The translations under genes and the position numbers were made by a program. From assembly GCA_030704845.1 (NCBI GenBank), contig JAUYKZ010000009.1:124001-188000 (forward strand): DNA of 64,000 bases. Direction: 5' to 3'. This DNA comes from an archaeon. GTDB taxonomy: Archaea; Nanobdellota; Nanobdellia; Woesearchaeales; GW2011-AR9. Shown here one piece after another: positions 12,450-27,617 of this stretch; within the stretch, counting starts at the first letter, position 1, and each line of letters begins with the position of its first letter. Under the pieces are notes generated by a model. The model did not search any database. It saw only the letters and a program-made list of their open reading frames with translations, and was not told where the DNA came from.

Positions 12450-12568
12450 GTGCGCGTGCCGGAGTGGTCAAACGGGATAGACTCAAGGCATATGAGTGTG
12501 ATAACCAAACTCGTTGTAAGTCATCTATTGGCTTAGTGCCTACGCAGGTTCGAGCCCTGCCGCGCACA
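12450..12568 (+). tRNA. tRNA-Leu(CAA) with a 35-nt intron (about 12488-12522)
   Basis: Acceptor GTGCGCG/CGCGCAC; D-stem CCG/CGG with AGTGGTCAAA loop; anticodon stem ATAGA-CTCAAG|intron|A-TCTAT; long variable arm TGGCTTAGTGCCTAC; T-arm GCAGG-TTCGAGC-CCTGC. Confidence 0.93.
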
Positions 12569-12625
12569 CTTTTTTATTTTCCTCAAACCAGAGTCTTTTT
12601 AAATCCCTACGTCTTTCTTTTCCTC

Positions 12626-27146: not shown

Positions 27147-27350
27147 CTATAAAGAATAGGCCCTCCCCGCAAGTTTAACTGAACAAGAACCACATTCCCA
27201 AATACCTGCTGCAAGTCTTTTAACACTTGTTTTGTTGCAATACGGGCACTTTTGCTTTGTACGATGTTGAGTTTCGATATTAGCAAATTTAGTTTTTGGT
27301 TTTCTACCGTACCGTGCTCCAAATCTTTTTGTTGGAAGTTTTGTTGGCAT
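27147..27350 (-). CDS. rpl37ae: ribosomal protein L37Ae (eL43)
   Basis: MPTKLPTKRFGARYGRKPKTKFANIETQHRTKQKCPYCNKTSVKRLAAGIWECGSCSVKLAGRAYSL; ATG 27350. Confidence 0.95.
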   Translation of the reverse strand: MPTKLPTKRFGARYGRKPKTKFANIETQHRTKQKCPYCNKTSVKRLAAGIWECGSCSVKLAGRAYSL

Positions 27351-27376: not shown

Positions 27377-27536
27377 TGGGGCTGCCCGGAAAATCGGAAA
27401 TTGAATCTGATTCAGCCACTTTTTCTAAATCAGCTCAGGCTTCGTTCGAACCGGGGTCTAAAGGTCCCAAACCTCTAATGCTAGATTGCTCCCATAGCCC
27501 TTATTTTGCTTATGGACCAAGCTACAACACAGCCCC
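27377..27536 (-). tRNA. tRNA-Pro(UGG), apparently interrupted by two introns (T-loop ~54 nt; D-arm/anticodon region ~30 nt)
   Basis: Acceptor GGGGCTG/CAGCCCC; Pro-like TAGCTTGGTCC D-loop; anticodon arm AGAGG-TTTGGGA-CCTTT; T-stem CCCGG, TTCGAAC, then 54 nt before CCGGG-CAGCCCC-A. Confidence 0.8.
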
Positions 27537-27617
27537 ACTAGTCTATTTATAAATATTTTGATTGAAAATGGCCTTCATCTTAAAAATTCTTTGGTTTTTT
27601 TCGAGAGATTTGAATAT

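Follow-up and report, generated by a model that had tools for sequence, protein, structure and literature searches.

Archaeal tRNA genes carry up to three introns (PMC8450103), and their non-canonical intron positions include 20/21 and 59/60, with Crenarchaeota and Nanoarchaeota named as rich sources (PMC4090602). For instance, tRNA-Pro(UGG) of Pyrobaculum islandicum is interrupted three times, at 25/26, 37/38 and 56/57 (cited in PMC4090602). The splicing endonucleases of DPANN hosts with interrupted tRNA genes have also been described, namely an (alpha-beta)2 enzyme in Nanoarchaeum equitans and an epsilon-2 enzyme in ARMAN-2 (PMC6379350, PMC12397907). The gene described here encodes the same tRNA as that of P. 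islandicum and likewise has several introns off the canonical site with bulge-helix-bulge (BHB)-type junctions. Nevertheless, the positions differ (19/20 and 59/60, with none at 37/38), the endonuclease is of another type, and the host is assigned to the Woesearchaeota (DPANN) because the closest named relatives of its ribosomal protein L37Ae are Woesearchaeota MAGs, an assignment based on this one protein and on genomes of the same family. The first-pass annotation had instead looked to Thermoproteota as the chief hosts of such introns. With respect to the list in PMC4090602, the T-loop intron falls on the listed 59/60 and the D-loop intron adjoins the listed 20/21, whereas 19/20 is absent from that list, which is open-ended. 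A literature search that covered few subscription papers and no bioRxiv preprints found no account of such tRNA introns in Woesearchaeota; the one paper touching on both subjects deals with group I introns of rRNA. Multiply interrupted archaeal tRNAs and 59/60 introns have already been published, and it is well supported that the present gene is a new example of them, in Woesearchaeota.

The tRNA-Pro(UGG) gene lies on the minus strand at 27377-27536 of the window (the whole stretch of 64,000 nucleotides that was analysed) and consists of 160 nt, in which three exons are separated by two inserts that interrupt the D-loop and the T-loop, respectively. All tRNA pieces named by the first-pass annotation, which had proposed a twice-interrupted tRNA-Pro(UGG), are present on this strand: the GGGGCTG acceptor, TAGCTTGGTCC, AGAGG-TTTGGGA-CCTTT with the anticodon TGG, CCCGG plus TTCGAAC, and CCGGG-CAGCCCC-A. 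Exon 1 (27517-27536) runs from the acceptor 5' strand through G19 (GGGGCTGTGTTGTAGCTTGG) and is followed by a 31-nt D-loop intron (TCCATAAGCAAAATAAGGGCTATGGGAGCAA, 27486-27516) at position 19/20. Exon 2 (27445-27485) comprises the remainder of the D-loop, the D-stem 3' strand, the anticodon arm, the T-stem 5' strand and TTCGAA (nt 54-59). A T-loop intron of 54 nt (27391-27444) at position 59/60 separates it from exon 3 (27377-27390), which holds U60, the T-stem 3' strand, the acceptor 3' strand and A73; CCA is not encoded. The excess of about 30 nt noticed earlier is real, but it follows G19 and precedes nt 20, so that it interrupts the D-loop itself and not the stretch that joins D-arm and anticodon stem. 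The length of 54 nt first given for the T-loop insert was exact, although the bounds of 27390-27443 were one base off. By eye, C versus T at nt 60 leaves the T-loop register ambiguous, and the BHB together with the consensus U60 settles it.

In-silico removal of the 31 nt and the 54 nt gives a 75-nt tRNA with a canonical cloverleaf (GGGGCTGTGTTGTAGCTTGGTCTAGCATTAGAGGTTTGGGACCTTTAGACCCCGGTTCGAATCCGGGCAGCCCCA). The predicted spliced T-loop has the normal 7 nt, UUCGAAU, and the predicted ligated junctions read GG joined to TCTAGCATT in the D-loop and TTCGAA joined to TCCGGG in the T-loop; intron-less orthologues match these junctions (GGTCTAGCATT and TAGCTTGGTCTAGCATT in L026, GTTCAAATCCGGG in L020). 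ARAGORN calls tRNA-Pro(TGG) for the doubly spliced form only; neither the precursor nor either of the forms with a single insert removed receives this call, and a spurious tRNA-Cys call arises from one singly spliced form in intron mode. In their standard use the finders missed the gene, whether by ARAGORN in default mode on the window, by Rfam at gathering thresholds on the window or by an RF00005 scan over the whole genome. Therefore, the tRNA sets of draft DPANN genomes are probably richer than they seem. A second interrupted tRNA of the window, Leu(CAA) at 12450-12569 on the plus strand with a 35-nt intron, was called by ARAGORN in intron mode and missed by the Rfam gathering scan. An Rfam match to IS009 near the tRNA-Pro locus (E 0.97) was regarded as chance.

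Both inserts carry a BHB at their junctions, so that the BHB introns proposed in the first-pass annotation can be given definite splice sites. In the D-loop, exon GCTT (27519-27522; nt 15-17a) faces intron GAGC (27488-27491) with all four central pairs, between the 3-nt bulges GG^T and AA^T; the inner helix, of five pairs, is formed by the CCATA...TATGG already noticed in the excess. This motif has no contiguous strict outer pairs and is HBh'-like. In the T-loop, exon TTCG (27447-27450; nt 54-57) faces intron CGAT (27393-27396) with three of four central pairs, the exception being a U-U mismatch at nt 54 that is also found in L021 and L023. Its bulges AA^C and TT^T are again 3 nt each, its inner helix GAAG/TTTC has four pairs and its outer helix is the 5-bp T-stem. 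Compared with the strict hBHBh' form, the T-loop intron thus has both flanking helices but one central mismatch, whereas the D-loop intron is without a strict outer helix. When each insert was dinucleotide-shuffled 20,000 times, a BHB at least as good as observed was found in 0.065% of cases for the D-loop and 1.6% for the T-loop. Since 1.6% of shuffled inserts score as well, a chance origin of the T-loop motif alone is only moderately improbable. MFE folding recovers the hairpins of the introns as well as the T-stem but misses the T-loop BHB's short central helix, and was therefore given no weight as a test.

With a probability of about 0.93, this is a functional and apparently the only tRNA-Pro(UGG) gene of the genome, whose two BHB introns are cut by the tRNA-intron endonuclease EndA and whose exons are joined by RtcB. 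The gene would be transcribed as a 160-nt precursor with the 31-nt intron after G19 and the 54-nt intron at 59/60. The introns would then pair back on the exons to build the BHBs (nt 15-17a, GCUU/GAGC; nt 54-57, UUCG/CGAU), EndA would cut every 3-nt bulge behind its second base, and ligation of the exons by RtcB would yield a 75-nt tRNA that has a 7-nt T-loop and presumably serves in translation. Real introns with slightly shifted cuts, for example in the next D-loop BHB register, would yield a D-loop of another length. The neighbouring register does have three helix and four inner pairs, and D-loop length varies among orthologues (28, 29 or 30 nt spliced upstream of nt 27). The chosen register, however, has all four pairs plus five inner ones and gives a D-loop as in the intron-less L026, which makes a shift improbable.

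What we regard as decisive evidence for introns, from the comparison of related genes, is the occurrence of inserts at both same positions in relatives. The linkage of tRNA-Pro to L37Ae is conserved across the genome family and beyond, and 77 distinct syntenic tRNA-Pro genes linked to L37Ae, including the present one, were parsed for introns. A D-loop intron occurs in 27 of them, a T-loop intron in 34 (the present gene and 33 other distinct genes with the same site) and a 37/38 intron in 30. All eight combinations are represented: no intron in 18, D-loop only in 12, 37/38 only in 6, T-loop only in 14, D-loop plus 37/38 in 7 (one entry, L032/L066, has masked bases and an uncertain 37/38 state), D-loop plus T-loop in 3 (the present gene, L029 and L153), 37/38 plus T-loop in 12 and all three in 5. 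The D-loop site recurs together with the same GCTT/GAGC helix; all four helix pairs are found in 23 of the 27 D-loop inserts, and three or four of four in the 34 T-loop inserts. In most of the D-loop motifs of this set the outer helix is not firm, and the same holds for the inner helix in many of the T-loop motifs. At least 12 (D-loop), 14 (37/38) and 19 (T-loop) changes are required on the L37Ae tree, whose support, from 67 residues, is too low to tell intron gain from loss. Being present in eight combinations of three sites in Woesearchaeota and near relatives, the introns of this L37Ae-linked locus offer a natural series for studying gain and loss.

The exon and intron partners of the central helices also appear to vary together. 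At nt 57, the 34 T-loop introns have G-C in 10, A-U in 18, G-U in 2, A-C in 3 and G-G in 1 (Fisher p 6.5e-4 in a 2x2 table of C versus not C). At nt 17, the 27 D-loop introns have U-A in 14, C-G in 9 and C-A in 4 (Fisher p 1.5e-4); neither test takes relatedness into account. On supported branches of the poorly resolved L37Ae tree there are one or two independent contrasts, too few for significance, and in these the partner changed as expected or was unchanged, never the opposite.

A pseudogene broken by two unrelated insertions, with another tRNA-Pro(UGG) active in the cell, is highly unlikely given that the inserts lie exactly at the sites used by dozens of orthologues and have BHB motifs. 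The gene keeps intact acceptor, anticodon and T stems. Decay might be read from nt 10 (window 27527), which is T here and G in 75 of the 77 linked genes; this T, which leaves nt 10-25 as a U-U mismatch, and the weakened D-stem are unique to the present gene among the 77. For T10, incipient decay, a tolerated substitution and an error in the assembly are all conceivable. A second copy could also be missing from the genome, which is a draft (1.016 Mb in 24 contigs, 97% complete). An intact tRNA-Pro(UGG) elsewhere, for which the first-pass annotation had advised a check, was found in this draft neither by BLAST of the mature sequence nor by Rfam. Furthermore, other tRNAs of the genome are similarly interrupted: in an inventory drawn from searches and single loci, at least four contain an insert at 59/60 whose junctions are of BHB type (L017, 75 nt; L018, 29 nt; the gene next to L156, 34 nt; L158, 84 nt), and several have introns at or near 37/38. 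A split or permuted tRNA, for which Nanoarchaeum gives a precedent of split tRNAs (PMC4090602), or self-splicing introns, group I introns being known in Woesearchaeota rRNA genes (PMC6125680), can practically be dismissed, as the exons follow one another in their normal order over 160 nt and the inserts of 31 and 54 nt are far below group I or II size and match no Rfam intron family.

Both enzymes needed for processing two BHB introns in this way are encoded in the genome. The RtcB ligase gene is clearly recognised (E 4e-173), and one EndA gene, at C16:17166-17759, encodes 198 aa with catalytic and N-terminal domains (PF01974, E 3e-29). By sequence, this EndA is nearest to the N. equitans alpha chain (3iey_A) and M. 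jannaschii 1a79_A. An 8-residue gap relative to A. pernix 3p1z_B covers Lys44 and its neighbours, so that the loop linked there to relaxed specificity (PMC6379350) has no counterpart. No second subunit was found in the genome by PF01974 at E<=1 or by tblastn at E<=10, a search within whose reach an N. equitans-like beta chain falls (E 1.3e-14) and which a very divergent or very short one might escape. The EndA locus exceeds the cut-off in 38 of 40 family genomes, one in each, in G017 as two overlapping pieces. A further EndA-like match in the present genome, at C8:202632 (PF01974, E 0.1), overlaps a short ORF, covers only positions 22-61 below the cut-off and was put down to chance. Compared with N. 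equitans and ARMAN-2, the host is likewise a DPANN archaeon with interrupted tRNA genes and its catalytic subunit is nearest to 3iey_A, whereas here one EndA gene was found per genome, with no beta or fused epsilon chain detected.

Many of the junctions are of the relaxed type, yet the sole EndA found is alpha-like and without the crenarchaeal loop linked to relaxed specificity. Given how often a firm helix is missing, on the outer side in most D-loop motifs and on the inner side in many T-loop ones, either a divergent partner may have gone unseen or the specificity rule may have an exception. That one alpha-type EndA, having no beta subunit and no crenarchaeal or ARMAN specificity loop, splices relaxed BHB introns of the D- and T-loops in Woesearchaeota is a tentative and rather doubtful suggestion. 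These observations raise the question of how relaxed motifs are processed by an apparently single-subunit endonuclease without known specificity loops.

Directly downstream of the tRNA on the minus strand lies its conserved neighbour, the L37Ae gene (27147-27350; PF01780, E 1.5e-20), whose start codon is 26 nt past the tRNA. Upstream, a TATA-like TTTATAAA (27546-27553, minus strand) occupies -17 to -10 relative to the start of the tRNA, and among 75 orthologous genes about 60 have a TATA-like match that begins at -17 to -14. If the usual archaeal TATA spacing holds, this element would be too close to start the tRNA itself; it might start the L37Ae mRNA inside the tRNA gene. An A/T-rich TTTTTAAG (27579-27586, minus strand), at about -50, is a possible promoter box A of tRNA-Pro, and TTTAAA-like boxes are common at -57 to -44 in relatives. 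Several other tRNAs of the genome have TATA-like boxes near -34.

Some linked genes show further peculiarities. In more distant relatives (L125, L115 and L127), T-loop introns reach 121-202 nt and the tRNA-Pro gene up to 294 nt. The canonical 37/38 introns of many relatives (L022, L030, L036, L058, L112 and L113) share a near-identical GGTGAGCTTCGGCGATGACCGG that is kink-turn-like (UGA ... GAUGA), and precursors with this element might be bound by L7Ae. Upstream of L37Ae in L097, L112, L096, L128 and L135, the tRNA-Pro 3' end (acceptor 3' strand) is repeated downstream of the gene, including the T-arm in L112 and with up to three extra copies in L097. These resemble the repeats of tRNA 3' ends that integrating elements leave behind (compare the published model in PMC3293823), and such repeats might be a route to T-loop introns.
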